A program made the position numbers and the translations under genes. From Gracilaria domingensis (lineage: Eukaryota > Rhodophyta > Florideophyceae > Gracilariales > Gracilariaceae): 64,000 nucleotides of DNA. Shown in pieces: positions 9,441 through 58,069 of the stretch. The stretch is taken from contig VCMS01000225.1 of assembly GCA_022539475.1 (NCBI GenBank), positions 44,128-108,127 of the forward strand. Reading direction: 5' to 3'. The notes under the pieces were generated by a model. The model was not told where the DNA came from and did no database searches. It worked only from the letters and a program-made list of their open reading frames with translations. Numbering within the stretch: position 1 is the first letter of the stretch; every line of letters starts with the position of its first letter.

Positions 9441-9445
9441 GGGAG

Positions 9446-18651: not shown

Positions 18652-19172
18652 TGTGAGATATTTGAAGTAGGGTGAGAGACGAAGTGAAGGAAATATCTGG
18701 GACTATGAGTGTGTATGCAGTCTATATGCTTCTTGTCCTTGCAAGAAATGCATTGGTAATTTGTGCATTGTTGCTACAATGATCTACACATATGCGTGAC
18801 CTACATGTGTAGTGCGCCATACCCACTGAGTATGTGCTTTAGTGTTACTAGCCTACTACTTAACGAAAGCTAGAGCATCTATCTAGTGATAGTTAGTAGT
18901 CAACTATTATATCGAATACAATTACAATACCGCGCCCAACAACCTTCGGAAGCCGTCGATACGCCAGCTTTCAACTGCAGGCAGACCAGCCTGTAGAATC
19001 GGTAGAGTCAGTACCAACCAGTCTATCAGCAGACCGATTGGTAGCCTTTCTCTGCGAGAGTTCAACTTTTGGTGGAACAGTCCGACAGAGGCCCGTCAGC
19101 TGAAGTGTGAACTACAAGGAACTGTACACCACACTCAGTAGTGGAGTACAACTTCCGTACTGAGTTTCGACA
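18652..19172 (+). repeat. 5' LTR of young copia
   Basis: 521 bp, TG...CA ends, one mismatch to the 3' LTR at 24132-24652. The primer binding site should lie right after it, beginning GTTATAAC at 19173. This resembles the complement of an internal initiator-tRNA fragment as used by some copia elements, but the match is not certain. Confidence 0.95.
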
Positions 19173-19222
19173 GTTATAACTGTGTTAAGGTCGACCACAA
19201 TTCTAACAGTAACTCAGTTAAC

Positions 19223-22200: not shown

Positions 22201-24100
22201 ACAGCGCGCAAGGGCCGTCGATAAGGCTATGGATGCTATTCGTAAAGAACAGGCAAAGCGTCGTGTTTCATTTGGACTGAAGCGCATTTCAGGTCCTAAA
22301 GGAAGGGAAAAGACCAATAACCTGGAGAAACTTCCTGCTGGTGCTCCCGTCTATGTCTACAGAAATCCTTCCAAGAAGTGGGAAGGTCCCTTTTCTTTCA
22401 TCAATGTGGATGGCGAAACTGTAGTAGTTTAGCTACCACATGGACGTCGTATATTTCGCTCCAGTGTCGTAAAGCCAGCAACTGGATCTCTGCTAGAACA
22501 CAAATCCGATACTGAAATCGCTCCGGCTGATGTTGTTCTGTATGGAAAGGATATCAAAGCAACGAAGGAATCGAATGAAGAACAGAAGAACCATGAGGGA
22601 ACATTCACTGAAGCGCGGATGAAGGAAATAACAGGTTTGAAGAAGCGTGGAACATTTGAAGTTGTTGACATCGGAGACATTCCGAAGGGCATGAGGATCT
22701 ACGGATCGAAGTGGGTGGACCTGGTCAAGTCTGTCGATGGTAGAGATTACAAGAAGTCACGACTGGTTGCACAGAACTACATGGACAGAGGTGCGTTGGA
22801 TATTGCTACGAAGTCTCCAACTGTCAGTCGACTCGGACAGCGGATCGCGATTGCCCTTTCTGTTTTATTCCCCGATCATACACCATACGTTCGCGACATA
22901 TCACAAGCATATATTCAATCTGAGTCTATGATTGAGCGCAATGTTTTCCTACGTCCTCCGACCGAGATGGGAATTGTATCCGGAAAGGTGCTTCGGGTAG
23001 TGAAACCTCTCTATGGAATTCCTGAGAGTGGCTTGCACTGGTTTCTGACCTACCACACCCATCATATCGAGAAACTGTTTATGAACCCCACTATGGCCGA
23101 CACATGTGTACTGTACCGAAGATCCGAAAAGAACCTTGAAGGTGTAACCATCTTACAGGTAGATGATTCTTTTGGACATGGTAGTCAAAACTTTCTTGAT
23201 GATGAGGAACGTTGCTCGAAGAAGTTTGAGTCGAAACCCCGCAAGTGCCTGCAAGAGGGAGATACAGCTACTTTTAATGGCGTCGATATTCAGAGAAGGT
23301 CTCAAGGGTGCATTGCTCTTTCGCAGAGTAAGAAGCTGCGATCTCTGGTTCACCCCCGTACAGCGAAAGAATTTATCAGTGTGCGTGCTCAAGCACAGTA
23401 CATTGGTTGTTGTACAAGACCAGACATATCTGCAGCAGTTCAGCTTTTGGCTAACTCTGTCAATGAACCTCAGCCAATTCACTTTCGAAAGCTGAAAGCT
23501 GTGGTAGACAGATGCCATGAGACGCCAGACATTGGTCTGAAATACGTTCCTTTGGATATTAGTTCAGCTCGTTTGATGCTATTCACGGACGCATCGTTCG
23601 CAAATGCGGACAAGATGAAGTCCCAACTGGGATTTGTATTAGTGCTGGCTGATGGAAACAACAGAGCGAACATAGTTCACTATGGAAGCTGTCGGTGCAA
23701 ACGTGTTGCTCGTTCCGTAATGGCAGCAGAAATCCATGCCCTCGTTTATGGATTCGATCAGGCATTCGTTGCCAAGCACATGATCGAAGAAATTACGGGT
23801 CGGAAGATAGGTATCGATGGATTTGTTGATTCCCGAACTGTGTTTAACGTCGTAGCAAAGAATGGCCCAACGTTAGAAAAACGTCTCCACATTGACGTCT
23901 CAGCACTGAAGGAGAGTCATAAGCGTGGTGAACTACGCTACCTCGCGTGGATTCCTGGGGATCAGAATCTTGCAGATGGATTAACAAAGGAACTCGTTCG
24001 ATTCTCTCACCCGCTTTGGGTTCTGATGAGAACGAACACTATCTCAATTCAACCGGAAGGATGGGTCGAAGGTACTAGGTTCAATCCCAACATCGTTTGA
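19223..24100 (+). pseudogene. copia Gag-Pol polyprotein with TGA and TAG stops
   Basis: A single frame. Gag occupies the first 637 codons, with a zinc knuckle CYVCGENHLARTRH near 20713 that lacks the final Cys. The protease site reads HIDTCAN, then TGA (21134-21136), then SSVMCYSQY, so the active-site Gly is Cys and the following residue is a stop. The integrase HHCC spans 21520-21660. Core acidic residues are in VAIDVMYIN, RIDQGSNF and THVERYHG. A TAG at 22430-22432 interrupts the linker (GETVVV*LPHGRR). RT has IYGSKWVDL and QVDDSFG as its YxDD box. RNase H has LFTDASFAN, MAAEIHAL and VDSRTVF, with WIPGDQNLADGLTK near the end. Both stops fit a C-to-T change (CGA, CAG). Programmed readthrough is less likely because the first stop falls inside the protease site. 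Confidence 0.9.
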
Positions 24101-24131
24101 ATTTGCTCATTCAAAAAGGAAAAGCTTGGAG

Positions 24132-24652
24132 TGTGAGATATTTGAAGTAGGGTGAGAGACGAAGTGAAGGAAATATCTGGGACTATGAGTGTGTATGCAG
24201 TCTATATGCTTCTTGTCCTTGCAAGAAATGCATTGGTAATTTGTGCATTGTTGCTACAATGATCTACACATATGCGTGACCTACATGTGTAGTGCGCCAT
24301 ACCCACTGAGTATGTGCTTTAGTGTTACTAGCCTACTACTTAACGAAAGCTAGAGCATCTATCTAGTGATAGTTAGTAGTCAACTATTATATCGAATACA
24401 ATTACAATACCGCGCCCAACAACCTTCGGAAGCCGTCGATACGCCAGCTTTCAACTGCAGGCAGACCAGCCTGTAGAATCGGTAGAGTCAGTACCAACCA
24501 GTCTATCAGCAGACCGATTGGTAGCCTTTCTCTGCGAGAGTTCAACTTTTGGTGGAACAGTCCGACAGAGGCCCGTCAGCTGAAGTGTGAACTACAAGGA
24601 ACTGTACACTACACTCAGTAGTGGAGTACAACTTCCGTACTGAGTTTCGACA
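24132..24652 (+). repeat. 3' LTR of young copia
   Basis: 521 bp, identical to the 5' LTR except T at 24610. It is preceded by a polypurine tract and followed by the ATTTG target duplication. Confidence 0.95.
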
Positions 24653-24981
24653 ATTTGGGAGCAGCTCTTTGGATCTTGCTAGAGCAGCTTGCCGCCAAAG
24701 GCGTAGCTTCGGTGGTTCTGCAAACCAAAGCTCTGGCGGCAAGCAGTCTGCCTTCGACGGTCGTTGATCCATCACCTTCCACTTCAGGTGTACATATGAG
24801 TTCGACTCTGTCATTTTCACCCACCCATCCATTCCCAAGGGACATGTTGCACCCTCGAGGTGCTCGTGGAACTGAATTACTATATAATTCGGTGGTGTTT
24901 GCAGTGTTACCTGCCGCACCTTCCTTCTACCAAAACAGTAAAGATCGCTCTTGAGAGCTGTGATACACATAGACAATAATA
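24653..24981. repeat. dispersed repeat R1, right part of split copy
   Basis: Continues R1 after the copia insertion and matches 12207-12537 closely to ACACATAGACAATAATA. The minus-strand ORF 24542-24985 is a shadow shared with the other copy. Confidence 0.8.
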
Positions 24982-31476: not shown

Positions 31477-32907
31477 TCAGACGGATGATCCAATTCGTGT
31501 GACGGGCTCAAGCAGCGCCCGTCCATCGCCGTCCGCGGTCGTTTTTCTCAATCTCAAGTTGATCACCTTCTCGCCCGTCGCTCCGCTTCGCTCCCCGCAA
31601 GCGATGGAGCGGGCCCAGCACTGAGAAAGCCCATCCACAGTGTTTGGGCTTTGAACGTGTCCCCATCTGTACTTGAAGCAAAGCTGAATCGCCAGCCCAA
31701 ATACCACAATCGCCCCCACCTCGATCGCGCCAACGATGATGATCACTTCATCCACAATCGTTCTCTGCGACACCTCCTCTCCTGGGAGTATCACGGTCAA
31801 ATTGTCCGTTCTTGTATACAACACAGTTCGAATTGCGGTGAATAACCCTTCCAAAGTTCGCGGCAAAAGGGAGCCGGAGCCGAAGTCTGAGTCCACGACA
31901 TGTTCCGCAGTCACCAGTACCCGTTCTCGGAATTCTAGTGTTCCAAGTTTCTGCAGCACCACGTCGAGAGGCCCAATACTCACGTCGTAAACACTGGAGT
32001 TCTCACCCTTAGAAGAGTTTTCCCGCTGAGATGAAGACACGTCGTTAACATCCTTGACAACAGAGTAGTAATCGATCACATTTCCGCTGATGTTGTGGCA
32101 ATTAAACTGGAAATCGATGCCATTTGACCTATAGAATGACGGTAGAAAGCATTCAAAACCAGAAGCATTGGCAACGCTCACATTCACACTCTTCGGTTCG
32201 TAGGCTGTTTCATTTGGGAGGTAGAAGTCGCTTTCAAAAGATGGCTGGAGAACAACACGGGGACCCTCAACGAACGAGAAACTCAGTTTACCTCTCAGAT
32301 CCCCTGGTCTGAGCTCACCGTGCAGCAAGAAGTCCAGGTCGGCTTCACCAGGCAGTTCGCCTTTCGTTCGATAGATTTGTTTGTCGGTGCCGTCAATGCA
32401 GTTGATGAGCAGCAAGTCGTTTCTCGAAGAGTACGTGACGTTCCCAACGCTGGCAGTGACCCAACCGTCTTGATCCGTAAACGAACAACGATCGAAAACC
32501 AGTTGCGCCTGACCGCGAAGGTCATAGATTGAGCCATTTGCGTGATTGCTGTAATTTAACCAACCTAGTACTGGTTCAGAAACGAACGCGTTCTGCACAC
32601 GCTTGGTCACTAAATGATGATGGTCTCGAAAGTCCAGTCTCGTTTCCAGGTAGACTGGGATTGCAACGCACACCAGTCGAAGAAGAAAGAGCAGCGCATG
32701 CGACCATTGACGGCTGTAGAGACCCTCATTCCACAGAGGATAGGATAGTGAATGAACCCGAATATTCTTGTCTTTCTTGGCTGACGTGTGGGAAAAGAGA
32801 GAAGCGGCGTTGGCTGTGGCAGTAACGAGAATGGGAAATACCAGTAGTTCAAAGATAAGGAACAGCAACGCTGCCGTTCCACCATTTCCAAATGGCAGTT
32901 CGATCAT
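31477..32907 (-). CDS. membrane glycoprotein, family member 1
   Basis: 476 residues from the ATG at 32907. That start is chosen because the next residues, MIELPFGNGG, match MVEVPFASGV at the start of the paralogue at 33749; an upstream ATG at 32967 is not conserved. A first membrane segment (AALLFLIFELLVFPILV) lies at about 10-30. The conserved YPLWNEGL follows, then a second segment (ALLFLLRLVCVAIPVYLETR) at about 70-90. A large ectodomain comes next with many N-glycosylation sites and INCIDGTDKQIYRT. A third segment (VIIIVGAIEVGAIVVFGLAI) is near 400, and the basic tail contains NTVDGL. The family is not recognised. It looks like a surface receptor or channel-like protein, function unknown. 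A truncated pseudogene copy is at 17188. Confidence 0.75.
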   Translation of the reverse strand: MIELPFGNGGTAALLFLIFELLVFPILVTATANAASLFSHTSAKKDKNIRVHSLSYPLWNEGLYSRQWSHALLFLLRLVCVAIPVYLETRLDFRDHHHLVTKRVQNAFVSEPVLGWLNYSNHANGSIYDLRGQAQLVFDRCSFTDQDGWVTASVGNVTYSSRNDLLLINCIDGTDKQIYRTKGELPGEADLDFLLHGELRPGDLRGKLSFSFVEGPRVVLQPSFESDFYLPNETAYEPKSVNVSVANASGFECFLPSFYRSNGIDFQFNCHNISGNVIDYYSVVKDVNDVSSSQRENSSKGENSSVYDVSIGPLDVVLQKLGTLEFRERVLVTAEHVVDSDFGSGSLLPRTLEGLFTAIRTVLYTRTDNLTVILPGEEVSQRTIVDEVIIIVGAIEVGAIVVFGLAIQLCFKYRWGHVQSPNTVDGLSQCWARSIACGERSGATGEKVINLRLRKTTADGDGRALLEPVTRIGSSV

Positions 32908-33748
32908 TGTGAGTGACTCCAGGTCTGGGAGATAGTGTGGATGCGAAAGAATTTTGATCGATCGCATGCAGGTCTGTCTTCAACTCATGACAATGGAGCT
33001 TGGAGAGACATGCAAGATGGGGAGCACTATCTCAATGCTGTCTACTTCCGTCGAAATTCAGGACTTCGATTTGAACACCTCAGTTTTAATGCTTCCGTAC
33101 ACGTACGCAGCTATTGGAAACTGTGAGTTTTAATCCTTCGAACCCTGTAGTCCAACTGATTGACGGTGCGTGGTCAGTCGGTTGGACAAATTTGGAAGGA
33201 TTAAAACTTTCCATTTTCAAAGCCAACAGTAACTTACTAAGGTTGGCTTCGAAAGTGGGGTGAAATGGGGTGTGACGTTGTAGAAATTGGGGATCTAATT
33301 CTTGGTCTATTTTACGAATACAGCGTAGCACGTCATCTCAAACTACCCGAGTTCCCACAGTAACTGTTCCATATCGATCTGAAGCTACGAAGGTAAGTAT
33401 TGCGGACATTGTTTGGATTTAAGCCTCGTAACGCGCAAACAAACACACACCAAAATGCCCGCAAAAGTTCAAGCAACAGTTTTCTCGGGATAACAATAGG
33501 GTAGAAAAGGTGAGGTAATAATCTCCGAAGGAGATGTGGCTGTAAAATCAGCTGTTAATTTCGTACCTCCAACACGTATAGCTGTTTGCCGTTGGCAGAA
33601 CGGGATGCCATGCTTCCAGACGTTCGTCCTCGTACCTACGTACGTCAAGTCGTGCAACAAGACGTCATCTCTTAGAATTCTACTGAAAGGACGAACGTGG
33701 CAGTTTGGGATTAAAATTTATCGGAACCTTCAGTGGCCAACTCTCGTT
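32908..33748. other. spacer between the two membrane protein genes
   Basis: No supported gene. It contains the imperfect inverted repeat 33127-33207. ORF 33536-33907 on the plus strand overlaps the 3' end of the next gene and shows no motif. Confidence 0.4.
33127..33207. repeat. imperfect inverted repeat
   Basis: GTTTTAATCCTTC at the left and GAAGGATTAAAAC (with surrounding bases) at the right pair. Inner arms GTCCAAC and GTTGGAC also pair. The whole forms an 81-bp hairpin with mismatches. It could be a MITE remnant or a 3' or 5' transcript structure between the paralogous genes. Confidence 0.65.
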
Positions 33749-35146
33749 CTAATTTTCACTACTGGAATCGGATTCGGTGATCAAATCATGCCGTTTTGGA
33801 GCTGCCGGTTCAAGAAAGCTCGCTTTCTTGCCTTCCAAATCCTTCCTCAGCCTCAGAAGAACGGTGATACGCCGCCTCCCCACCTTCTGCGTACACGAAG
33901 CATTTGACTGTGCCCAGATTTCCGCGAGCCCATTTAGTGTGTTGGGCATTTCAATTTCTTTCCGTCTAAGCCTTGTGTATATCAACATTGTGAGGCCAAA
34001 CAAAAGCACAAAAACTACCTCTGTTAAGCCCAGGGCAATGAAAAAGTTTCCTATCTCAGTTCGACGTGATTCAGCGCCGTTAACTTCGACTGTCACATTA
34101 CTTGCTCTTGTGTACCAAAAACTTCGCAAGACATAATAAAAAAGTGCTAAATTTCTCGGTGAAGGCAGCGCAAAGCTCGCTTTCATCAACTGCTCGGCTG
34201 TGAGACGAGTGTCCTTGAACTGCAACCTTTCTACGTAGAACGTACGAAGCTCCATTGTTGCATTCATTGTACGAATAAGACTGGATTCATTCCCAGCTGT
34301 TCCAATCTGTTGAGGGGTAGAAGTGAAATTGATATCCTTCGTGCCGTAAAATTCGGTGACATTGCCACTCACCTTCTCGCAAATGGGACTCACCGATTCC
34401 ACTGGACTACGTGAGGGCTCGTGGAGAATCTTGTTATTGACACAGTTGAATCCTTGGGCATTCAGCATGGACAAGTTCTGGATTCGGAACACTGTAGCGT
34501 TTTGAGGAATGTCATAACCACTGAGATCATTCGGAAACTCCCGTCGTGGGCCTTCGATCCAGGTTATTCCCAAACCTATGACATGTTCGTACTTGGAAGG
34601 GTTCTCGATGGCCTCAACGTTAGGAAGGCTTCGGTATAGTGGCTTCCTAGTATCTTCGATGCACTGCACTTTCCCCCTGGATCCACTTGGTGCTGTAACA
34701 TTTGCAACTGTTGCAGTGAGCCATCCATTTCCGTCCATCTTCGTGCATTGGTCATAGACTATCACGGCTTCTGAATACCAAGTAAGTGAGTACTCAGACG
34801 ATTCGTGTGTTTTTGTTACTACGTAGGCGTTCTCGACGATTCTAGATACTGGCATGAACACACGACGAGACTCAAGCCTTGTCTCTATGTACACAGGAAT
34901 TGCAATAAAGACGACCCGAAGCAGAAGGAGAAGCTTGTGTGACCATTGATGACGTAAAAGCCCTTCATTCCAGAGCGGAAACTTCAAGGATTCCACCCGA
35001 ATTTCACGTCCGTTTTGCGCTTCTGAGTGCAGAAAGACGGCAGCGGCGCTGGAGGTGGAATAAATGAGCACGGGAAAGATTAGGAGTTCGAAGACAAGAA
35101 AGATGAAGGCAGCGACAACACCACTTGCAAAGGGCACCTCAACCAT
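33749..35146 (-). CDS. membrane glycoprotein, family member 2
   Basis: 465 residues, a paralogue of the gene at 31477 with the same plan. N-terminal membrane segment (AFIFLVFELLIFPVLIY) at about 12-30. FPLWNEGLLRHQWSHK leads to a second segment (LLLLLRVVFIAIPVYIETR) at about 72-92. The ectodomain has about ten N-glycosylation sites and several Cys (QCTKMDGNGWLTATVANVT, CIEDTRKPLYRS). The third segment (FFIALGLTEVVFVLLFGLTM) is at about 375. The cytoplasmic tail has PNTLNGLAEIW, parallel to NTVDGLSQCW in the paralogue, and an acidic Ser-rich end. The conserved tail motif suggests an intracellular partner. Function not known. Confidence 0.75.
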   Translation of the reverse strand: MVEVPFASGVVAAFIFLVFELLIFPVLIYSTSSAAAVFLHSEAQNGREIRVESLKFPLWNEGLLRHQWSHKLLLLLRVVFIAIPVYIETRLESRRVFMPVSRIVENAYVVTKTHESSEYSLTWYSEAVIVYDQCTKMDGNGWLTATVANVTAPSGSRGKVQCIEDTRKPLYRSLPNVEAIENPSKYEHVIGLGITWIEGPRREFPNDLSGYDIPQNATVFRIQNLSMLNAQGFNCVNNKILHEPSRSPVESVSPICEKVSGNVTEFYGTKDINFTSTPQQIGTAGNESSLIRTMNATMELRTFYVERLQFKDTRLTAEQLMKASFALPSPRNLALFYYVLRSFWYTRASNVTVEVNGAESRRTEIGNFFIALGLTEVVFVLLFGLTMLIYTRLRRKEIEMPNTLNGLAEIWAQSNASCTQKVGRRRITVLLRLRKDLEGKKASFLEPAAPKRHDLITESDSSSEN

Positions 35147-37073: not shown

Positions 37074-37370
37074 TGAAAACGCCATTTTTGTGATGGCGCC
37101 GGCGGTTACAGCCAAAGGGGGCAAAAACAATGAAAATAAAGTTTGCTCTCGTAGAGTACCAGTCCAATCGGACGAAGAAGCACTAGCCAAATATAAGCTT
37201 ACGTAGATAGAGTGCGGCAGAAGCCAAACAACAAAGCACGAACACAAGAACAGAAGAGGGATACCAAACGATAGGCGAGAAGATAAAGAAGAACAAACAA
37301 GGATAATATATGTAATGAGATATGAATAGAAATGTGTCACAACTGGACAATGAAAAGAGAGACCTGTGCT

Positions 37371-37871
37371 CTAATAGATAGTATTGTTCTTCTTCCTAAG
37401 GGTCGCACGATGGCGACGGCTTCTGTAGTGCACACGCAGATCGTGAGCTTCGGAGAACTTGATGTCACAAACCTCGCAGTGGATGTCCTGCTCGGTGTAG
37501 TTGGCGCGACGTACGGCTCTACGATGGCGTCGGCCTGCTTGGTGAACTTCAAGCTGGCGTTGACTCTGAACCTTAATGTCGCAGACGCGGCAGCGCTTTA
37601 GGATTTGCTTACGTGGCGGGGGGTTACGACGGCGCTTCTCCTTCTGGTGGGCTACACGAAAGATGTGGCGCTCGCGTGGCCCGTCAAGAGGCTGAACAGC
37701 CGACTTCTTTATCTGAGGAACGGGATCGGGGACTTCTTCTATACGCTCGTCCGGATCGACCACGGACGAATACTCGCTGGATGAAACGATAGACCTTGGC
37801 ACTTGATGTGAAACAAACGAAACGTTAGTAGTCACACAAAATGCCAAAAGAGTAGCTGTAGACAACTTACT
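37371..37871 (-). CDS. LTR-encoded protein with two U1/matrin-type C2H2 zinc fingers
   Basis: About 143 residues, spliced. Exon 2 is open from 37801 to 37371. It has an acidic N-terminal part (SSVVDPDERIEEVPDPVP), a basic stretch (KEKRRRNPPPRKQILKR), and two fingers of identical spacing C-x2-C-x12-H-x5-H: CRVCDIKV...VHQAGRRHR and CEVCDIKF...VHYRSRRHR, then a basic tail. This spacing is that of U1/matrin/JAZ-type fingers, which often bind RNA or double-stranded RNA. There is no ATG in this LTR frame. Removing 37802-37870 (GTAAGT donor, TACTAAC branch motif, AAG end) joins A to TG and makes one (CAAG-ATG-CC). The ORF lies downstream of the LTR TATA-like site, so it would be the first ORF of the element's transcript. 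The splice is inferred. Confidence 0.65.
   Translation of the reverse strand, partial: SKLSTATLLAFCVTTNVSFVSHQVPRSIVSSSEYSSVVDPDERIEEVPDPVPQIKKSAVQPLDGPRERHIFRVAHQKEKRRRNPPPRKQILKRCRVCDIKVQSQRQLEVHQAGRRHRRAVRRANYTEQDIHCEVCDIKFSEAHDLRVHYRSRRHRATLRKKNNTIY
37802..37870 (-). other. putative 69-nt intron in LTR leader
   Basis: On the minus strand it begins GTAAGT and contains TACTAAC followed by a pyrimidine-rich stretch, ending in ATCAAG. Its removal creates the start codon of the zinc-finger ORF. The 5' LTR copy (45891-45952) retains the same donor, branch motif and acceptor. Confidence 0.5.
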
Positions 37872-38497
37872 CTTGAACGATTGCCTCAGGGCCGTAGGTT
37901 AAGGACAACCTTACGCTGTATCACACAGTGCGTCTAGCAACAACAGGTGCAAAGCAACACTATGTGAGGAACAGAATCGCAACGCGAAAGAACCAGCAAA
38001 ACCAGGGACCAAGGCCGAAACGGGAAGCAATAGAACGGATGCAGGCAGCAGAAGGCCGCCAAACAGCAAGAAACGGGGAAAAAACGAAGATGACAACAAC
38101 AACGGTAGTTCAGGCAATACAGAATGGCAGATAGACCAACAACAGCGAAAGAAACCAACGAAGGGAACAAAAGAGACAAGAAAGGCCAAACAAAGCGGAT
38201 AATGAAAGGCAGAGTCACGCCTGCACAAGGCTAACCCAATGGAAGGGTGGTGCAGACGCTTTGCCTACTCACACAGGACGAGCCCAGACAGAGGGTCAGT
38301 GTGAGTGGCAGTGAGCGAGGGAGGGCGGTGAGACCAGGCCGCCAAGGGGAGAAGTAGAGAGAGAAGTAGGGGATGAGGAAAGGTTGAGGACGACAAAGGG
38401 AAAAGGAGAGAGGTTGGAAGGTTGTGGTGGGGTAGGGGGGAAGGTCGTCGAAGGGAAGTGGTCTGGCCGGAGTTGAGTCGGAGGCGACTGCTCCGGC

Positions 38498-38507
38498 CCT
38501 TTTATGC
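38498..38507 (-). promoter_or_regulatory. TATA-like box of gypsy LTR
   Basis: GCATAAAAGG on the minus strand. Immediately upstream lies the 18-bp inverted repeat 38510-38550. The same arrangement is present in the plus copy near 56643. Confidence 0.5.
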
Positions 38508-38509
38508 AC

Positions 38510-38550
38510 AACCGCACCGTCGATTCCAGGCGGGAATCGACGGTACGGTT
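38510..38550. repeat. 18-bp inverted repeat next to LTR TATA box
   Basis: Arms AACCGCACCGTCGATTCC and GGAATCGACGGTACGGTT pair with one mismatch around a 5-base centre. The position just upstream of the core promoter suggests a dimeric protein binding site. Confidence 0.7.
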
Positions 38551-38986
38551 GGCTTGGCCAATGGATGCGTTGTATCTACCGTACTAGCCTATAAGAGGCG
38601 TAGGTGGTAGATACTTTAAGCGCATATGCCGCCACAGGGGGCGCCTACGCAACGCAGTACACAGCGTGGAATGCACGTGTATTTGCGCAAGCGCAGGCGC
38701 CTCCTGTGGGTGACCACGAATTTGGCAATTGACAGCCGATGAGGTCGGGTGGTCAGCGTTGGAGCGCTCTCTGCCACTTAAGTAGACAATCTCATGTCGC
38801 CCTGCTTGTAGTGCGGCGCCTCCTGGCCACACGCAAGGTAGATTCTGCGTAGAAAACTAACTAAACCTAAGATAGGATTAACTATAATAAAGCATTTTTA
38901 AACTATATTCTGTATTACCGCTGCGTTGGGCACAACGCAGGAGTGTAGACACGCACACCTGTCCGTGTACCGTTTGACGGGCCACA

Positions 38987-39033: not shown

Positions 39034-42000
39034 CTAATTCTCGGTGGTATAGTGGAAGAGAAAGGGTACTGCTAGCTTCTCTGGGTCGGGGGTGTAGCTG
39101 AGTATCCGAGCGATTCCTGTGCGAGCATAGTGCGAAATATGGTCCTGAGTCTCTTGTATGTAGAATTGCGATTCTGGGAGATGCCCATGCAAGGAGACTG
39201 CATGGTGGTAAAGATATACCGCGAATTCTGGCTCGATATTGCTGCCGTAGTTCTGGTGCACACGTCGAAATAATGTTCTTAAGATAGATCCTCCTCTACG
39301 ACTCAAGAACGGGCCCGAGATTGAGAACAGGGCGAGTGAGGCATGCGTCAGCGTCCAGGTAACCCTTTCCACCTCTGGGATAGAGACGTTCAAAGGGCTA
39401 AGCCATGAATGTATGCTTTTCCCTCCAATGATAAAGTGACACGAGAGGTGGGGTGCAGTGAGGATATTGTAGTCAACGCGGAGTGGCATTACAGTGATCT
39501 GAGTGGGATATGGGACAGGGGTGTCTTCGCCTTCCGTAATAGTGGCTACCACCTCGTCCTGCAGATGAACTGGTCGGCGATGATACCGCTTGAGCCGGCG
39601 GGCGTGGACCCCTTCTCTAGTGTAACGATTATGAGGGGACACTAGGACATATCGGGGGTGCCTGGCCTTAACCACCTTACAGGGTCCGTAGAATTTTGAC
39701 TGAAAGGCAGGCCATTTCACGTTGGGATTCAGAGCCTTCCCATGTATCACCAAGACCTCATCACCGACGTTGAACCGGTGCCCGGACTTGGGGTCCTCTT
39801 GTCGATTGGGTTGAGATAGAACTCTGGAAGCTCTGCCTGCGGAATTTGCAAGTAGTTCATGATGACGATTAGTGGGGGTTGGATCTACGATGAGAGGGGG
39901 TAGGTCGTCTGAGCTCATCCGTGGGACCGTGCCATACATGAGCTCAAAAGGAGAAAACCCGCCACCCAGCCGGCGCCTCCTGTATCCGTAAATTATCTGC
40001 TCGAGAGCTTCATCCCATTCTTGTCCCTTATTGAAGATTGTTTTGGCAATCGATTTCTTGATGGTTCCAACCATTCTTTCAGCCCGGCCATTAGACATAG
40101 GGGCATAGGCCATGGTGGGCTTGAGGGATATCTTCTTACTTTCCATGTATGCTTCGACTGCCTTGGCTTTGAAGGAACTGAAGTTGTCGGACACGATCGT
40201 CAGCGGGGAACCAAACGGGGAAACGATCTGAGATCGAACAAAGTGAATGACGGTGGTAGAGGTCTGATTACCGTAGGCCGCGGCAATAGGCCATCCTGTT
40301 ATGTGTTCTACACCAATCAGAGCAAAACGGTTGCCATTCCTGGTAGCCGGAAGAGGACCGGCGAAGTCCACAGAGAATGTATGAAATAGACCAGTCAATG
40401 GGGCTCTTTGTCCTGGCCGGTACTTAAGCAGGGGTGTTGTGAACTGACACCCATCACAACTGCGAACATATGAAACGATGTCGGGGTACATTCCAGGCCA
40501 CCAGAATCGGAACTGGACCAGATCCTTAGTAGCCTCCAAGTCCCAATGTCCTATGTCATCATGAAAGGATGAGAGGATGCCACGGCGCTTGCTTACAGAG
40601 GGTACCACTCTTAATCCTTTCTTGGTACGGCGATAGAGAAGACCTTCCCAAAGGAAGAACTTCTTCGCATTCCTCTTAACCAAAGCGCGGATCTTAGGGT
40701 CTTCTTCAGGAAAAGAAAAGGCGGCAAGGTACAACTTGATGTGCGCGCAGAAGGGCTCCAAGTCATAGACCTCGTCCGTTGCATTCAGTACAACAGACAC
40801 GTCATCATCCGGCTCCGGTGGATCCCCAACGGCAAAGCGAGAGAGATAGTCGGCAGCCCGATTCTTATCGCCAGATCTATAGACTATAACGAACTCGTAT
40901 TCCGCTAGCAGGTCCATCCATCGGGCTAGGCGCCCGTGAATGTCCTTCTTTTGGAATGCATACTTCAGAGCTTGGTGGTCCGTAACAAGCTCAAAGGGGA
41001 GACCTCCGAGTAGATACATGCGAAACTTCTTCAAGGCAAAGACCACGGCTAGGGCCTCTTTCTCGCAAGTAGAATACTTTCGCTCGGCGGCATTAAGCGT
41101 GCGACTGGCAAATTGAATTGGGTGATACATTCCGTCCTCTTTCTTTTGTGACAGAACGGCACCAAGCGCGACTGAAGAAGCATCGGTTTCAACTCTAAAA
41201 GGCTTCTCAAAGTCGGGAAATGCTAAGACCGGCGGGGATACTAACTTTCCCTTTAGATCATTAAACGCTGTCTTCATCTCATTGGTGAAATTCAGCTTTC
41301 CCTTCCCTGTAGTGGCAGCATGCAATACTGCTGACGTATCTGCGAAATCCTTTATGAACCTTCGATAATAACTGGCTAGACCGAGAAAACTTCGGAGCTC
41401 GGTTACCGTCGATGGTTCGGGGGCCTTTTGGATGACGTCGATCTTGTCTTGATCAACCGAAGTGCCTTCCTTGTTGATGACGTGACCAAGCAGTTTGATA
41501 CGGGGTTGTGCAAAATCACATTTGGATATTTTTATCTTCAGACCATGACTTGCAAGGATCTCGAGCACCCTGGTTAGGTGGTACAAATGTTCTTCCAGGC
41601 TTCTCGAGAAGATGACAACGTCGTCTATATAGACGCGAGCAAACTCCACCCCATGAAGGACCGCGTCCATCATTCTTTGAAACGTGGCTGGGGCATTCAT
41701 GAGACCAAAAGGCATGACTTCAAACTGGAAGGTTCCCTGACGACAAACGAAAGTCGTCATTTCTTTGCAGTCAGGGGCCATGCGCACCTGCCAGTATCCG
41801 GAGAAAAGGTCTAGGGTCGTGAAGAACGAACAACCACCCAAATCGTCAAAAATCTGTTCCATGTTTGGCAGGGGCCACCTGTCGGGCGTCATGACCTGGT
41901 TCAGACCCCGATAGTCGACACAGAACCGGGGCTTTCCATCCTTCTTATGTGCGATGACAACTGGGAAGGACCAAGGAGAGGTGGACGGCTTGATGATCCC

Positions 42001-42579
42001 GGCGGACAACATTTTGTCGACCTCTTTCCGAACAACGCCGTCATGCTTTGGGGGTAGCCTTCGGACCTTCGAATGAATTGGGGTCTCGACACTGAGGTCA
42101 AACCTGTGCGTTACCGGCACGTCAGAGGGCCTAAGATCATACAAGGACCATGCTATGACATTCAAGTTATCCAGAACAGCGAGGAGGTCCACCCGTCTAT
42201 CCCTTGGGAGATGAGAGATCCGTTCTAGAATCACCTCCTCCTTGTTGGTGTGGGGGGGGTAATCACGTCGGTCGAGCGTGCGACCGAGTGAATCTTGCGC
42301 AATTGGATCTTGCAGAGAATACTCAATGTCTTGCGCTGGGCACGTAGGCTCGGCCACAACTTCTTCGTCGCGGCTTGGGTCTTGTGAATGTTCATCATCT
42401 CCCGGGGTCCGGGCGTCGATTTCGTCCGGAGGTAGTTCTTCTTCAAATGCTATGACATAACCGCCGGAGTCGTCGTCCTCCAGCATTCCTACGCGGTTGA
42501 GCGGTAAGTTCTGTGCTTCTAGATGAGGGGGACGCGCGGGTGACGGTACTGGATGTCGCAATTGAACCCGCACGTCCAA
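39034..42579 (-). CDS. Ty3/gypsy Pol: reverse transcriptase, RNase H, integrase
   Basis: An open frame of 1181 residues whose first codon is TTG, so the true frame continues from Gag/protease upstream. RT: KVRRLPPKHDGVVRKEVDKM, FCVDYRGLNQVM, LDLFSGYWQVRM, MPFGLMNAPATFQRMMD and the active site ARVYIDDVVIF. RNase H: RVETDASSVALGAVLSQ, EKEALAVVFAL, LVTDHQALKYAF and AADYLSRF. Integrase: zinc motif (HDDIGHWD...CDGCQ), then catalytic Asp in FSVDFAGPL, Asp in IVSDNFSSF and Glu in GRAERMVG. A GPC/F-like module (FYGPCKVVKARHPRYVLV) follows, then about 100 residues without a chromodomain. The enzyme set copies and inserts the element. All catalytic residues are intact, in contrast to Gag. Confidence 0.93.
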   Translation of the reverse strand: MDVRVQLRHPVPSPARPPHLEAQNLPLNRVGMLEDDDSGGYVIAFEEELPPDEIDARTPGDDEHSQDPSRDEEVVAEPTCPAQDIEYSLQDPIAQDSLGRTLDRRDYPPHTNKEEVILERISHLPRDRRVDLLAVLDNLNVIAWSLYDLRPSDVPVTHRFDLSVETPIHSKVRRLPPKHDGVVRKEVDKMLSAGIIKPSTSPWSFPVVIAHKKDGKPRFCVDYRGLNQVMTPDRWPLPNMEQIFDDLGGCSFFTTLDLFSGYWQVRMAPDCKEMTTFVCRQGTFQFEVMPFGLMNAPATFQRMMDAVLHGVEFARVYIDDVVIFSRSLEEHLYHLTRVLEILASHGLKIKISKCDFAQPRIKLLGHVINKEGTSVDQDKIDVIQKAPEPSTVTELRSFLGLASYYRRFIKDFADTSAVLHAATTGKGKLNFTNEMKTAFNDLKGKLVSPPVLAFPDFEKPFRVETDASSVALGAVLSQKKEDGMYHPIQFASRTLNAAERKYSTCEKEALAVVFALKKFRMYLLGGLPFELVTDHQALKYAFQKKDIHGRLARWMDLLAEYEFVIVYRSGDKNRAADYLSRFAVGDPPEPDDDVSVVLNATDEVYDLEPFCAHIKLYLAAFSFPEEDPKIRALVKRNAKKFFLWEGLLYRRTKKGLRVVPSVSKRRGILSSFHDDIGHWDLEATKDLVQFRFWWPGMYPDIVSYVRSCDGCQFTTPLLKYRPGQRAPLTGLFHTFSVDFAGPLPATRNGNRFALIGVEHITGWPIAAAYGNQTSTTVIHFVRSQIVSPFGSPLTIVSDNFSSFKAKAVEAYMESKKISLKPTMAYAPMSNGRAERMVGTIKKSIAKTIFNKGQEWDEALEQIIYGYRRRRLGGGFSPFELMYGTVPRMSSDDLPPLIVDPTPTNRHHELLANSAGRASRVLSQPNRQEDPKSGHRFNVGDEVLVIHGKALNPNVKWPAFQSKFYGPCKVVKARHPRYVLVSPHNRYTREGVHARRLKRYHRRPVHLQDEVVATITEGEDTPVPYPTQITVMPLRVDYNILTAPHLSCHFIIGGKSIHSWLSPLNVSIPEVERVTWTLTHASLALFSISGPFLSRRGGSILRTLFRRVHQNYGSNIEPEFAVYLYHHAVSLHGHLPESQFYIQETQDHISHYARTGIARILSYTPDPEKLAVPFLFHYTTEN

Positions 42580-45127: not shown

Positions 45128-45162
45128 AGTATCAGGGCCAAGGGCACTCGGCGAGAGTACCA
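45128..45162 (-). promoter_or_regulatory. gypsy primer binding site
   Basis: Directly after the LTR end, the minus strand reads TGGTACTCTCGCCGAGTG, consistent with pairing to a tRNA 3' end (CCA). The tRNA identity was not determined. The plus copy has a one-to-few-base deleted version. Confidence 0.65.
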
Positions 45163-46368
45163 TGAAAACGCCATTTTTGTGATGGCGCCGGCGGTTACAG
45201 CCAAAGGGGGCAAAAACAATGAAAATAAAGTTTGCTCTCGTAGAGTACCAGTCCAATCGGACGAAGAAGCATAGCCAAATATAAGCTTACGTAGATAGAG
45301 TGCGGCAGAAGCCAAACAACAAAGCACGAACACAAGAACAGAAGAGGGATACCAAACGATAGGCGAGAAGATAAAGAAGAACAAACAAGGATAATATATG
45401 TAATGAGATATGAATAGAAATGTGTCACACTGGACAATGAAAAGAGAGACCTGTGCTCTAATAGATAGTATTGTTCTTCTTCCTAAGGGTCGCACGATGG
45501 CGACGGCTTCTGTAGTGCACACGCAGATCGTGAGCTTCGGAGAACTTGATGTCACAAACCTCGCAGTGGATTTCCTGCTCGGTGTAGTTGGCGCGACGTA
45601 CGGCTCTACGATGGCGTCGGCCTGCTTGGTGAACTTCAAGCTGGCGTTGACTCTGAACCTTAATGTCGCAGACGCGGAGCGCTTTAGGATTTGCTTACGT
45701 GGCGGGGGGTTCGACGGCGCTTCTCCTTCTGGTGGGGCTACACGAAAGATGTGGCGCTCGCGTGGCCCGTCAAGAGGCTGAACAGCCGACTTCTTTATCT
45801 GAGGAACGGGATCGGGGACTTCTTCTATACGCTCGTCCGGATCGACCACGGACGAATACTCGCTGGATGAAACGATAGACCTTGGCACTTGATGTGAACA
45901 ACGAAACGTTAGTAGTCCACAAAATGCCAAAGAGTAGCTGTAGACAACTTACTCTTGAACGATTGCCTCAGGGCCGTAGGTTAAGGACAACCTTACGCTG
46001 TATCACACAGTGCGTCTAGCAACAACAGGTGCAAAGCAACACTATGTGGGAACAGAATGCAACGCGAAAGAACCAGCAAAACCAGGGACCACGGCCGATA
46101 ACGGGAACAATAGAACGGATGCAGGCAGAAAGGCCCAAACAGCAAGAACGGGGCAAAACGAAGATGAAACACAACGGTAGTTCAGGCAATAAGAATGGCA
46201 GATAGACAACAACAGCGACGAAACCAACGAAGGAACAAAGAGACAAGAAAGGCCAACAAAGCGGAATAATAAAGGCAGAGTCACGCCTGCAACCAGGCTA
46301 CCCCAATGGAAGGGCTGGTGCAGACGCTTTGCCCTACTCACAGGAGAGCCCCGACAAGGGTCAGTGTG
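45163..46368 (-). repeat. 5' LTR of minus-strand gypsy, cut by assembly gap
   Basis: Corresponds to 37074-38300 of the 3' LTR and includes the zinc-finger ORF (about 45459-45953, frameshifted here) with the same splice-like signals. Single-base deletions rise in frequency towards the gap. About 0.68 kb of the LTR should remain beyond 46368. Confidence 0.85.
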
Positions 46369-46676
46369 NNNNNNNNNNNNNNNNNNNNNNNNNNNNNNNN
46401 NNNNNNNNNNNNNNNNNNNNNNNNNNNNNNNNNNNNNNNNNNNNNNNNNNNNNNNNNNNNNNNNNNNNNNNNNNNNNNNNNNNNNNNNNNNNNNNNNNNN
46501 NNNNNNNNNNNNNNNNNNNNNNNNNNNNNNNNNNNNNNNNNNNNNNNNNNNNNNNNNNNNNNNNNNNNNNNNNNNNNNNNNNNNNNNNNNNNNNNNNNNN
46601 NNNNNNNNNNNNNNNNNNNNNNNNNNNNNNNNNNNNNNNNNNNNNNNNNNNNNNNNNNNNNNNNNNNNNNNNNNNN
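46369..46676. other. assembly gap (N run)
   Basis: 308 unknown bases. At least about 680 bases of LTR are expected here, so the gap length is probably nominal. Confidence 0.95.
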
Positions 46677-48290: not shown

Positions 48291-50005
48291 TGTGGCCCGT
48301 CAAACGTAACACGCACAGGTGTGCGTTCTACACTCCTGCGTTTTGCCCAACGCGCTAATACAAATATAGTTAAAAATGCTTATTATATTAACCATCTTAG
48401 TTTAGTAGTTTTACGCAGATCACCTTGCGGTTGCCAGAGGCCCCACTACAACAGCGACATGAGATGTCTACTTAAGTGGCAGAGAGCGCTCCAACGCGGC
48501 CACCGACCTCACGGCTGTCAATTGCCAAAATCGTGGTCACCACAGAGGACGCCTCGCTTGCCAAATACACGTCATTCCACGCTGGGTACTGCGTTGCGTA
48601 GCCCCCCTTGTGCGCATATGCTCCTGAAAGTAATCTACCACCACCCTCTTATAGCTAGTAACGATACAACGCATCATGCCAAGCCAACGTACGTCATTCC
48701 CGCCTGGATCGACTCCTTGTACAAAAAGGGCTGGAGCTCGCCTCCGACTGCAACTCCGCCAGACCACTCCCTCACGACGACCTCCCCACCCCCCCCACAA
48801 CCTCCAACCCTCTCCTTTCCCGTATTCGCATCCAACCTTCCTCATCCCTACTTCTCTTCTACTCTCCCCTCCCTGGTCCACCCCCTCCTCGCTCACTGCC
48901 ATCACACTACCCTCTTCTGGCGCTCTGTGTGAGTAGGCAAAGCGTCTGCACACCCTTCCATGGTAGACTGTGAAGGCGTGACTCTGCCTTTCATTATCCC
49001 TTTGTTTGACTTTTCTTTCTCTTTTTTCCCTCGTTTTCTTTCGCTGTTGTTGTTCGCATCTGCATTTCTGTCTTTCCCGAACTACCTTGTTGTTTCATCT
49101 TCTTTTCCCGTTTCTTGCTGTTGGCGCTTTCGGTGCTGCTGCAACCTCTATCTTCCCTTCGCCTTTCCCTTTTTGCTTTTCTTTCGCTTGCGTTCTGTTC
49201 CTCACATATGTTGCTTTCACCTGTTGTGACTAAACGCACCCGTTGATACAGCGTAATTTCCTTAACCTACGCCCACAATCGGCAAGAATAGTTGTCTAAC
49301 ACTACTCTTTTGCATTTTGTGGACTATAACGTTTCGTTGTTTCACATCAATGCCAAGGTCTTATCGTTCATCCAGCGACGATTCTCGTGTCGAGCCGACG
49401 AGCGTATAAAAAGTCCCCGATCCGTCCTCAGATAAAAAGTCGCTGTCAGCCTCTGACGCCACGCGGAGCCCACATCTTGTGTAGCCCACCAGAAGGAGAA
49501 GCGCCGTCAACCCCCACCACACGTAACAAATCCTAAGTCTGCCGCGTCTGCACATTAAGTTCAGAGTCAACGCCACTTTAATTCACCAGAGCCGACCATC
49601 GTAGCCGTACGTCCCAATACACCGAGCAGACATTCCACTGCAGTTTGTAATCAAGTTCTCCAGCTTCACGATCTGCCGTGGCACTAGAACCGCGCATCGT
49701 CGACCCTTAGGAGAAAGAACGATACCTATCATGAAAGCACAGCTCTCTTTCATTGTCCATTTGACACATTTCTATTCATAGCTCATTACATATATATCCT
49801 TGTGTTCTCTATCTTCTCGCCTATCGCTTGATCCCCCCTCTTCTTTTTTGTTGTGCTTGTGTTTGGCTTCTGCCGCACTCATCTACGAGCTTAATTTGGC
49901 TAAGGCTTCTTCGTCCGATTGGATGTACTCAGCAGAGCAAAACTTTATTTTCATTGTTTTTGCCCCTTTGGCGTAACCGCCGGCCCGTCACAAAATGCGT
50001 TTTCA
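48291..50005 (+). repeat. 5' LTR of plus-strand gypsy, deletion-rich
   Basis: Starts TGTGGCCCG, ends GCGTTTTCA. It is about 180 bp shorter than its 3' partner, with losses spread as single bases rather than blocks. A degraded zinc-finger ORF lies at about 49349-49735. Confidence 0.85.
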
Positions 50006-50029
50006 GTACTCTCGCCGATGTCCCTTGCC

Positions 50030-51620
50030 CCGTACTATGGCACCTCGACCGCCTTCTTCGACGGATACAATTCGATGTTCGTCGATTCTCTTTTTCTTCG
50101 AAACGTTGCCACCGGGAAAGCCTTGAGAGCGTTCCTCCAAATCTTGGGCTCTAAGTCTGACCCTTCGATCATTATATAAAATTTCTCTGTAGATGGCCAG
50201 TGCTCACCCGAACCGGCCAACTACAATCAGTAAGAAGTCCCTGCTCGATCGCTTTGCGCTGCTAGAACCCGAGGATATACGAGAAGCTGTTGACTGCCCG
50301 ATTTGACTACGGTACTCTTTGTTCCCTCCACGCGATGCGACCGCTGCTTCGACAAGCCGAGTTCAACCGAAGGCCAATCGCCCCTTCTCCGTAAAGCGTT
50401 ATGAGTAATATTCATCACTACCTCTACGATGTTACTATAATATTCGCGCGCTATCATTAACCTGACCATACTATCTCTATCTTCTATATCCACACAATCT
50501 AGCCCATCGAACATCTCTAATATCTCGATCCTCATCATATTATACCAATTGACTCTCTCTCTATATATATATATAATACCTATCAACCATAGGTCCCCAA
50601 GCTCAACTCCTCTGATAGTCCCATGCAGACAAGTATCAGCAGCTATCAGTCTTGCGAACTCACCTCCTTTGATGAAGAACAAATCATCATCTGCTCTCAC
50701 TACGACACCAACCTCCCGAAAGTCTATATATCTACCTAGATGACCACAGACTTATATAATGTCGATCTTCATACCCTCGTCCACTCACTCATCTACCACA
50801 ATTACATCTGCATACGCATTCTATATGCTGGGAACAAACGGACATTCCTATCGCAACTTTTTGAAGCCCATTTCGGAAAAGAATCCGTTTCGATGCCGAA
50901 AATCAGAAAGAAATCCCGGAAGTCCCAGACCCAACCAAGTTTCTGTAGTCACCGAGGATGACGTTCAGGATCGCGAGACTGTAGCGATGGCCAAACGAGC
51001 GCTGATGGCGCCCCATTGCCAAAGCAGGCCCGCCTGGAACATCGGGTTGGTGTCAAGGAGCTTCTGAACCCAGCAAGCGACACCCCATTTCGCTTGATTC
51101 GCTCAGCTACGCGTAATCGATCCGGGAAGCCTAAGAAGGCCTCCACAAAGAAGCTCTCTGGTAAGTCAATGCTCCAGGAGCACGCCGGAAAGTATAACGT
51201 AATGGAGGAGCTCGCGAATGCCCCGACCGGGCTCACATTCGGTCAACTCATTCGCGGGGACGCCGATGCGGCCAAGAAAGATCTGCGTCGAATCATCTCT
51301 GGCCGTTCAACGACCAGAAAGGTCAATGCGACCCAGGTCGAGCGTGAAAACTCTCGTCTTAAGGTTGTGCCTATTACAGTCTATGGGACCATGACCCAAG
51401 CCTTCTTGGACTCTGGCGCTGTCCCGAATCTAATGTCAGCAGAACTAGCGGACCATCTGCTACTGACACCGAACCCCACTGAAAGGACGATTAAAGTAGC
51501 TGATGGCAATGTTGCCCGCATTCGTGGTACTCTAGAGGGCGTTCCTGTAAGGTTCGATGACCTCCGAGTATCCCTCGAGTTCTTGTTATCGAGAAGCCCC
51601 CCTTCGATGTAATCATCGGA
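50030..51620 (+). pseudogene. gypsy Gag and protease, partly open
   Basis: The Gag start region is recognisable near 50038-50170. Between about 50400 and 50810 the sequence is so altered that only scattered blocks align to the minus copy (around 44330-44750), with AT microsatellite runs. From 51016 to 51612 the frame is open: KESTKKLSGKSMLQEHAG-like spacer and MEELANAPTGLTFGQLI, then the protease AFLDSGAVPNLMSAELADH. This is the clearest protease of the two copies. Confidence 0.75.
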
Positions 51621-52099
51621 ACCCCACGCTAGAAAAGCTGCATGCCTGTATCGATCTTGGTACACAAGAAGTCACCATGAGTTACAACAAGAAGCACGTC
51701 GTTATAGGACTCGACTCCGATCGTTCCGGATTAGAAGCATTTGTCCGTTGTCTGAGACAGATAGCGAAGATTTCACGTCAGACTCTGATGCTATCCCGTC
51801 TGACTCTGAAGATGAGTCGGAGGACTTTGCTAACCTCCCCCTTCCAAAGCAGCGAACAACTGGTGGCGCCGAATGACCCTATGGCAGTAATGGAAAGGAT
51901 GGGGACGCAGGATCCAGGATGGCGAAGAGGAGAACGATGGTGAGGAAGAACCCGCCAATGTGACAGCGCAGCCCACCCAAGCCGGGCCGTTCGAAGGACC
52001 TCAAGTATCTGACCAAGCCCGTCGACCGACTCAGGCTGAAGATTCCAACGGCCCTAACTTCACCTGGCGTACCATCGGACTCAGATTCATCTGGATAGT

Positions 52100-56140: not shown

Positions 56141-56174
56141 TACGACGCCCGCGTAGCGTCGTTTGGTTTGGTGG

Positions 56175-58069
56175 TGTGGCCCGTCAAACGGTACACGGAC
56201 AGGTGTGCGTGTCTACACTCCTGCGTTGTGCCCAACGCAGCGGTAATACAGAATATAGTTTAAAAATGCTTATTATAGTTAATCCTATCTTAGTTTAGTT
56301 AGTTTCTACGCAGAATCTACCTTGCGTGTGCCAGGAGGCGCCGCACTACAAGCAGGCGACATGAGATTGTCTACTTAAGTGCAGAGAGCGCTCCAACGCT
56401 GACCACCCGACCTCATCGGCTGTCAATTGCCAAATTCGTGGTCACCCACAGGAGGCGCCTGCGCTTGCGCAAATACACGTGCATTCCACGCTGTGTACTG
56501 CGTTGCGTAGGCGCCCCCTGTGCGGCATATGCGCTTAAAGTATCTACCACCTACGCCTCTTATAGGCTAGTACGTAGATACAACGCATCCATTGGCCAAG
56601 CCAACCGTACCGTCGATTCCCGCCTGGGATCGACGGTGCGGTTGTGCATAAAAGGCCGGAGCAGTCGCCTCCGACTCAACTCCGGCCAGACCACTTCCCT
56701 TCGACGACCTCCCCCCCCCACCCCCCCACAACCTTCCAACCTCTCTCCTTTTCCCTTTGTCGTCCTCAACCTTTCCTCATCCCCTACTTCTCTCTCTACT
56801 TCTCCCCTTGGCGGCCTGGTCTCACCGCCCTCCCTCGCTCACTGCCACTCACACTGACCCTCTGTCTGGCGCGTCCTGTGTGAGTAGGCAAAGCGTCTGC
56901 ACCACCCTTCCATTGGTTAGACTTGTGAAGGCGTGACTCTGCCTTTCATTATCCGCTTTGTTTGGCCTTTCTTGTCTCTTTTGTTCCCTTCGTTGGTTTC
57001 TTTCGCTGTTGTTGTTCCATCTGCCATTCTGTCTTTCCCGAACTACCGTTGTTGTTGTCATCTTCGTTTTTCCCCGTTTCTTGCTGTTTGGCGCTTTCTG
57101 CTGCCTGCATCCGTTCTATTGCTTCCCGTTTCGCCTTGGTCCCTGGTTTTGCTGGTTCTTTCGCGTTGCGATTCTGTTCCTCACATAGTGTTGCTTTGCA
57201 CCTGTTGTTGCTAGACGCACTGTGTGATACAGCGTAAGGTTGTCCTTAACCTACGGCCCTGAGGCAATCGTTCAAGAGTAGGTTGTCTACAGCTACTCTT
57301 TTGGCATTTGTGTGACTACTAACGTTTCGTTTGTTTCACATCAATGCCAAGGTCTATCGTTTCATCCAGCGAGTATTCGTCCGTGGTCGATCCGGACGAG
57401 CGTATAGAAGAAGTCCCCGATCCCGTTCCTCAGATAAAGAAGTCGGCTGTTCAGCCTCTTGACGGCCACGCGAGCGCCACATCTTTCGTGTAGCCCACCA
57501 GAAGGAGAAGCGCCGTCGTAACCCCCCGCCACGTAAGCAAATCCTAAAGCGCTGCCGCGTCTGCGACATTAAGGTTCAGAGTCAACGCCAGCTTGAAGTT
57601 CACCAAGCAGGCCGACGCCATCGTAGAGCCGTACGTCGCGCCAACTACACCGAGCAGGACATCCACTGCGAGGTTTGTACATCAAGTTCTCCGAAGCTCA
57701 CGATCTGCGTGTGCACTACAGAAGCCGTCGCCATCGTGCGACCCTTAGGAAGAAGAACAATACTATCTATTAGAGCACAGGTCTCTCTTTTCATTGTCCA
57801 GTTGTGACACATTTCTATTCATATCTCATTACATATATTATCCTTGTTTGTTCTTCTTTATCTTCTCGCCTATCGTTTGGTATCCCTCTTCTGTTCTTGT
57901 GTTCGTGCTTTGTTGTTTGGCTTCTGCCGCACTCTATCTACGTAAGCTTATATTTGGCTAGTGCTTCTTCGTCCGATTGGACTGGTACTCTACGAGAGCA
58001 AACTTTATTTTCAGTGTTTTTGCCCCCTTTGGCTGTAACCGCCGGCGCCGCACCAAAATGGCGTTTTCA
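56175..58069 (+). repeat. 3' LTR of plus-strand gypsy
   Basis: About 1.9 kb, close to the clean LTR at 37074. It includes the TATA-like CATAAAAGG near 56646 and a zinc-finger ORF (57344-57773) that has a genomic ATG because one base of the acceptor-like AAG is missing; the ORF is frameshifted. Followed by CTTCC (58070-58074). Confidence 0.9.

Follow-up and report, generated by a model that had tools for sequence, protein, structure and literature searches.

What does a zinc-finger frame do inside the long terminal repeat (LTR) of a red-algal retrotransposon, and how might it be expressed? We addressed this question in a 64,000-nucleotide (nt) stretch of Gracilaria domingensis DNA (contig VCMS01000225.1; hereafter the window), examined together with the genome of 77.9 Mb in 680 contigs. 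The window holds two gypsy elements, one (A) on the minus strand, from 37 kb, and the other (B) at 48-58 kb on the plus strand, with an LTR length of 1913 bp and LTR ends TG...CA. The order of reverse transcriptase (RT), RNase H and integrase, the TG...CA LTRs and short target duplications identify the family as a Ty3/gypsy LTR retrotransposon. We found that its LTR probably holds an accessory gene that is under selection and governed by a splice switch between a two-finger protein and Gag.

The initial annotation had reported, inside the LTR and downstream of a TATA-like site, an open reading frame (ORF) with two fingers of identical C-x2-C-x12-H-x5-H spacing and basic flanks. All of these features were confirmed in the 3' LTR of element A (37074..38986, minus strand; 1913 bp, TGTGGCCC...GTTTTCA), the copy with an intact frame. 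The TATA-like box CATAAAAG lies at LTR 481-488 (38499..38506, minus strand), upstream of the frame; it is identical in 64 of 94 aligned rows and reads TATAAAAG in 9 further rows. On the minus strand, the mechanical ORF list counts the frame from a TTG (37371-37865). Finger 1 occupies residues 71-93 (37524..37592, minus strand) and finger 2 residues 109-131 (37410..37478, minus strand). The assignment to the U1/matrin/JAZ type stood in part: zf-met (PF12874; 42.5 bits against a curated cut-off of 21.2) and zf-C2H2_jaz (PF12171; 37.1 bits against 22.6) each matched two stretches, but zf-U1 was not among the 15 families reported up to E = 1. A genome search with the finger protein gave 151 matches, and among the matches listed at least 93 span residue 1 or 2 to residue 143 without a stop, an openness far beyond chance. 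For the comparisons that follow we used 93 LTR copies, which remained when nine duplicates were removed from 98 loci and the four LTRs of the window.

The finger frame has no ATG of its own. Just upstream of it we found the layout GTAAGT-N34-TACTAAC-N20-AG, a predicted intron of 69 nt (GTAAGT...TACTAAC...CAAG; LTR 1117-1185; 37802..37870, minus strand) with the branch-point motif TACTAAC at 37824..37830 (minus strand). Joining A/GT...AG/TG, where slashes mark the splice sites, would bring the A at 37871 (minus strand), the predicted last base of exon 1, to the TG at 37801-37800 and create an in-frame ATG preceded by AAG; exon 2 (37371..37801, minus strand; TG...TAG) supplies the remainder of the 143-codon frame plus the stop. 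Both A/GT and AG/TG are retained in 78 of the 93 copies, 77 of which also keep the branch motif CTRAC; the other 15 comprise the two LTRs of element B, which are rich in errors, and 13 old copies. The pattern A/GTRAGT..CTAAC..AG/TG occurs twice in the window, both times in LTRs, and in none of 40 Markov-simulated windows. Subfamily changes within the intron spare the splice signals, and the intron lacks codon-position bias (3/2/2 differences at positions 1/2/3 between the window copy and copy L051; 8/5/5 variable sites across 15 copies). None of the 93 genomic copies is intron-less, which indicates that they were copied from unspliced RNA. Taken from these signals, the start codon of the finger gene seems to be made only by intron removal.

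To assess selection on the frame, we calculated ratios of nonsynonymous to synonymous divergence (dN/dS) with a Nei-Gojobori script. The 93 LTR copies yielded 58 distinct finger frames, of which 35 are free of gaps, insertions and inner stops; among these 35 the ATG is lost in three and the stop codon in one, and each of the eight zinc ligands is retained in 32 to 35. When the window copy was compared with nine copies from other subfamilies, dS was 0.36-0.72 and dN 0.025-0.075, giving a dN/dS of 0.06-0.09 in eight comparisons and 0.12 in the ninth. In five copies, differences at codon positions 1/2/3 numbered 4/6/34, 4/4/28, 9/8/42, 9/9/41 and 10/9/45 (chi-square p 1.1e-7 to 2.8e-9), and the remaining five reading frames of the same stretch gave a dN/dS of 0.27-3.7. 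One second-subfamily copy, L047, gave 0.08-0.15 against the two other copies of that subfamily. The finger frame is under purifying selection between subfamilies. The initial annotation had proposed this very comparison as a check on its claim that the element carries a functional accessory gene, and the values between subfamilies (0.06-0.12) bear the claim out.

The sequence around the frame is also unusual in its start codons. An ATG-free run of 1537 nt (37086..38622, minus strand) ends exactly at a gag-type ATG (ATGGCGTTTTCA; 37083..37085, minus strand), which lies among the final 12 nt of the LTR and opens gag when in the 5' LTR. Of the 2042 ATG-to-ATG intervals counted over the two strands of the window, none is longer, and the second longest measures 826 nt. 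With a predicted transcription start near LTR 510, placed from the TATA-like box, the leader would span 1392 nt as far as the gag ATG (LTR 1902) and include the whole finger frame. It contains no ATG in any frame, against a mean of 11.8 in dinucleotide shuffles (minimum 4, n = 1000), and 23 occurrences of CAT, the same word on the opposite strand. We then counted ATGs across the 87 little-gapped copies (6 were dropped): the leader is without ATG in 39 of the 40 copies diverged by at most 5% from the window copy, and the 47 more diverged copies, 13 of which have none, average 2.4 ATG versus 21.4 CAT. Gag reads through the likely primer-binding site at 8 of 12 loci inspected, and other DNA follows at the remaining 4. 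In element A the candidate site (TGGTACTCTCGCCGAG...; 45146..45162, minus strand) stands directly after the LTR, inside the gag frame; it was assigned from its position and its TGGTA start, not from a match to a transfer RNA. The suggestion that the finger protein is translated first from genomic RNA was not upheld, as unspliced RNA has no ATG for the finger frame and, in its leader, no ATG precedes that of gag.

We propose that the element depends on this small LTR gene, in a model in which the transcription start, the splicing and both translation outcomes are predicted. Transcription would start after the TATA-like box of the 5' LTR. When the 69-nt intron is spliced out, A would be joined to TG to form the only start codon upstream of gag, and the spliced RNA would be translated into the two-finger protein. 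When the intron is retained, scanning ribosomes would travel about 1.4 kb before encountering their first AUG, that of gag at the LTR end; this unspliced RNA would give Gag-Pol and also serve as the genome, which would account for the intron in the genomic copies. By analogy with the element Cer1 and its protein CERV (see below), the finger protein may act on the element's own RNA and favour the unspliced form through export, a splicing block or packaging, and the outcome would be a Rev- or CERV-like switch from early to late expression. That the protein is an RNA regulator of its own element is a tentative proposal, drawn from that analogy. The wider idea, that the intron-split start codon could be the main regulatory switch in a class of red-algal retrotransposons with the finger protein feeding back on it, is possible but falls short of probable. 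If true, the regulator could still be made from even a solo LTR.

A second, diverged lineage bears on how old such a switch might be. A family search and a second protein search of the genome turned up relatives whose finger parts are 41-47% identical to the window protein and that are located upstream of gag in this lineage. The finger part on contig C139 shares 46-47% identity over 88-102 residues, and a 67-nt intron (GTAAGT...CTAAC...CACAG/TG) lies upstream, whose splicing would again create an ATG; the predicted N-termini are MSSSSEY at C139 and MPRSIVSSSEY in the window copy. From the TATA-like box of C139 to its gag-like frame there is 1 ATG versus 9.5 expected (P 0.0005, Markov simulation). 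The C139 gag, which is interrupted by another LTR element, gave 78 genome matches as a query, and a finger match lies upstream of gag on the same strand at seven loci (C139, C9, C50, C90, C224, C62 and C229), two of which (C90 and C224) look like duplicates of a single segment. The gag matches beyond these seven had no adjoining finger match in the second protein search, with the possible exception of C84. The two lineages share the layout, with finger parts only about 46% identical, and the switch may be an old control system common to both; taken jointly with the whole regulatory-switch reading, we offer this with less than even confidence.

Several observations weigh against this reading. 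The second subfamily compared with the old one gives a dN/dS of 0.15-0.55, comparisons within the old subfamily give 0.16-0.83, and pairs with a dS of 0.01 give 0.58-1.48; we read the higher values outside the window subfamily as post-insertion mutations in dead copies, by themselves no evidence of function. U3 is ATG-poor as well (3 versus 7.5 in shuffles, P 0.015), so the scarcity in the leader may partly be a general feature of the LTR, and single leader segments reach just P 0.012-0.022 (0.62 for the intron). RNA folding adjoining the frame is unremarkable (z -0.94 for 37074-37370 and z -0.72 for 37871-38170). If the A and TG on either side are not required, the intron pattern is no rarer than chance, with 3 occurrences in the window against 1.4 expected. 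The intron length of 69 nt is divisible by three, and in 82 of 85 gap-free rows the intron leaves the reading frame open; read-through from a non-ATG start is therefore possible. In the second lineage, the C139 copy is broken, with a stop and a frame change separating its N-terminal part from the fingers, and one ATG is present in its leader; no second LTR copy was found in that lineage and the C139 leader is present in two places only, and the gene there may lie outside an LTR.

Next, we considered what the protein binds. The initial annotation had taken the finger spacing to point to RNA, often double-stranded, and the structural comparisons did not support this. The predicted structure has a mean pLDDT (predicted local distance difference test) of 74.7 and a pTM (predicted template-modelling score) of 0.38, and the best 50 rows of a fold search are all DNA-binding C2H2 proteins, none of them significant (best E 0.034), a result that lends no support to RNA binding. 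The sequence neighbours in the PDB are mixed, with ZNF622 and the RNA-binding ZFa first (E ~0.004) and mostly DNA-binding fingers among the remainder. The strongest rival to an RNA regulator, which we nevertheless regard as unlikely, is a protein that binds DNA and regulates the LTR promoter of its own element, with the logic of Tat and the chemistry of C2H2 fingers; the fold-search rows and the later PDB neighbours favour it. However, in copy L042 a 94% identical protein stands beside a U3 that is ~50-78% different, which makes a fixed site in U3 unlikely, and RNA is favoured by the x5 spacing of the histidines and by the jaz, ZFa and ZNF622 neighbours.

Somewhat less likely still, the protein may counter host silencing, for example by binding double-stranded RNA that arises from the many copies. 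Pfam describes zf-C2H2_jaz as a double-stranded-RNA-binding finger and the copy number is high, but the sequence offers nothing to tell such a role from RNA export or packaging. A third alternative concerns expression rather than function: the frame may be read from unspliced RNA, with initiation at a near-cognate codon of exon 1 or of the intron, the ATG-free leader only letting ribosomes reach gag. The open intron just described would allow this, and the leader holds 47 TTG, 31 CTG and 20 GTG. We consider it improbable, as the intron is free of the codon-position bias that is strong in the exon, the nearest upstream in-frame stop lies just 30 nt before the intron, and donor, branch and acceptor are kept, with the same ATG-making junction in the C139 lineage. 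Last, a host gene fragment hitch-hiking without function, an alternative raised by the initial annotation, is highly improbable: same-type C2H2 fingers do occur in other genome frames, but the dN/dS between subfamilies (0.06-0.12) is lowest in the finger frame and relatives with 41-47% identity in the finger part stand upstream of a gag-type frame in the second lineage, at seven loci and probably at C84 too. An old host donor of the finger gene may nonetheless have existed, and other genome frames with jaz-type fingers, few of which were inspected, are present.

Searches outside this genome returned no relatives. Against 5.8 billion proteins, the 143-residue protein gave 25 candidates and a 13-row alignment 2128, none at E <= 0.01. 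The gene would start only after splicing, so predicted-protein sets may miss relatives, and this absence of homologues is weak evidence. Among viral contigs, an exact 20-base pattern had 0 matches, and an alignment search confirmed none of 66 pattern-matching stretches.

Known systems share single parts of this arrangement. The superantigen gene of mouse mammary tumour virus (MMTV) is a protein gene inside an LTR, located in U3 and read from the 3' LTR; unlike it, the red-algal finger frame sits downstream of the promoter. In Ty1 the gag start lies inside the LTR, as it does here, but Ty1 lacks the extra gene upstream of gag. Rex of human T-cell leukaemia virus type 1 (HTLV-1) exemplifies the regulator logic by which unspliced RNA is allowed to leave the nucleus. 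The same logic applies to Rev of human immunodeficiency virus type 1 (HIV-1), as described in the Cer1 study (PMC10309623), and an export role for the finger protein would follow it; neither Rev nor Rex has a demonstrated sequence relation to the finger protein. According to the same study, Cer1, a gypsy-type element of C. elegans, makes CERV from a spliced RNA, CERV is required for export of the unspliced genomic RNA, and the cysteine-rich loop essential to CERV may be a C4-type finger that binds RNA (PMC10309623). The likeness to CERV is an accessory protein from spliced RNA, with unspliced RNA as both genome and gag-pol mRNA, which is predicted here; the difference is a 143-residue C2H2 protein encoded wholly within the LTR, upstream of gag, with a start codon split by an intron. 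Full-text searches, which covered few subscription journals and were judged by titles and the beginnings of abstracts, found no zinc-finger gene encoded in an LTR and no example from red algae. The components are known singly (genes in LTRs, gag starts in LTRs, and regulators from spliced RNA, for which Cer1 is the tested example among LTR retrotransposons in the literature searched), and their combination is new within the literature searched. The system is compact and LTR-borne, exists in many near-identical copies and carries a sequence-level prediction of one leader serving two proteins. It may be useful for asking how simple retroelements gain control resembling that of complex retroviruses, and how a split start codon gates translation.

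We then returned to the LTR copies themselves. Recurrence of the finger ORF in all four window LTRs had been reported, and the finger region is indeed present in each, but the frame is intact in only one of the four (37074-38986). It carries 3 indels in the 5' LTR of element A (readable part 45163..46368, minus strand; an N gap at 46369-46676 cuts the LTR), lacks 46 bases in the 5' LTR of element B (48291..50005, plus strand; 82% identical, 226 gap positions) and has 2 deletions in the 3' LTR of element B (56175..58069, plus strand; 98% identical). Relative to near-identical copies elsewhere, numerous single-base deletions are seen in 45163-46368 and 48291-58069; these, most of all in the LTR at 48 kb, look like the product of an unpolished long-read assembly rather than of biological decay. 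Five-bp target duplications are CTTCC on both sides of element B, GTATC at L015/L016 and GTACA at L093/L022. The pol frame of element A (39034..42579, minus strand) has the domain order of gypsy elements: RT, RNase H, then the zinc-binding and core domains of integrase. Relative to the window LTR, copies L041-L080 are mosaics in which U3 and part of the leader are ~40-78% different and the frame is far closer; in some copies U3 is ~50-78% different beside a nearly unchanged finger frame, and where the frame of the window copy departs from that of the second subfamily, it does so mainly in the finger half. From this mosaic structure, recombination among LTR subfamilies is likely. On contigs C94, C92 and C526, three finger matches lie ~8.1-8.8 kb apart, and on C94 internal element sequence flanks the LTR on both sides; these read as tandem elements with common LTRs.

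We also considered the carrier of the second lineage. Its gag has no Pfam match above cut-off, no clear similarity to the gag of the window's copia-like element (E 0.19) and none to other window frames or the frames of L104. A copia carrier gained no support: none of the 150 scored RVT_2 matches (of 764 candidates) sits just downstream of the gag loci, a weak test made by eye. We also rejected C84 as a third element with its own adjoining gag, as the gag and protease there belong to another LTR family inserted just after the stop. At C84 an intact single finger frame is followed by this inserted element and, ~12 kb on, by a same-strand gag match; by coordinates alone, the match beyond the insert (C84:158536-159670) is of the C139 type. 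The C84 finger frame is probably upstream of this C139-type gag, provided that the insert measures 11.4-11.6 kb as elsewhere. An in-frame CAG/TG was seen at C84 and no convincing donor was found; a splice-made start is possible there. The inserted family, with a 741-bp LTR, is common to C84, where it directly follows the finger frame near 171.5 kb, and to C139, where it sits in the gag-like frame near 47.1 kb, and its other copies are 86-90% identical and paired ~10.7-10.9 kb apart.

Finally, we noted features beyond the finger gene. The first 310 nt of the predicted leader (38171-38480, minus strand) are rich in C, and their predicted folding is stronger than that of every one of 100 shuffles (z -4.27); this segment is a possible packaging or export element. 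The window's second-longest ATG-free run (8754-9579, plus strand; 826 nt) lies near retroelement-like frames. In the genome, the phycobilisome family PF00502 has 12 matches, all above cut-off (10 on C680 and 1 each on C98 and C8), and we read C680 as the plastid contig of a red alga. Beside element A, the frames at 31477-32967 and 33749-35146 (minus strand) have no Pfam match above cut-off; by eye they are membrane-protein-like and similar to each other. A separate element at 18651-24655 (plus strand), whose first frame of 637 residues has no Pfam match above cut-off, carries 525-bp LTRs that are 99.6% identical, with frames that are copia-like by eye.
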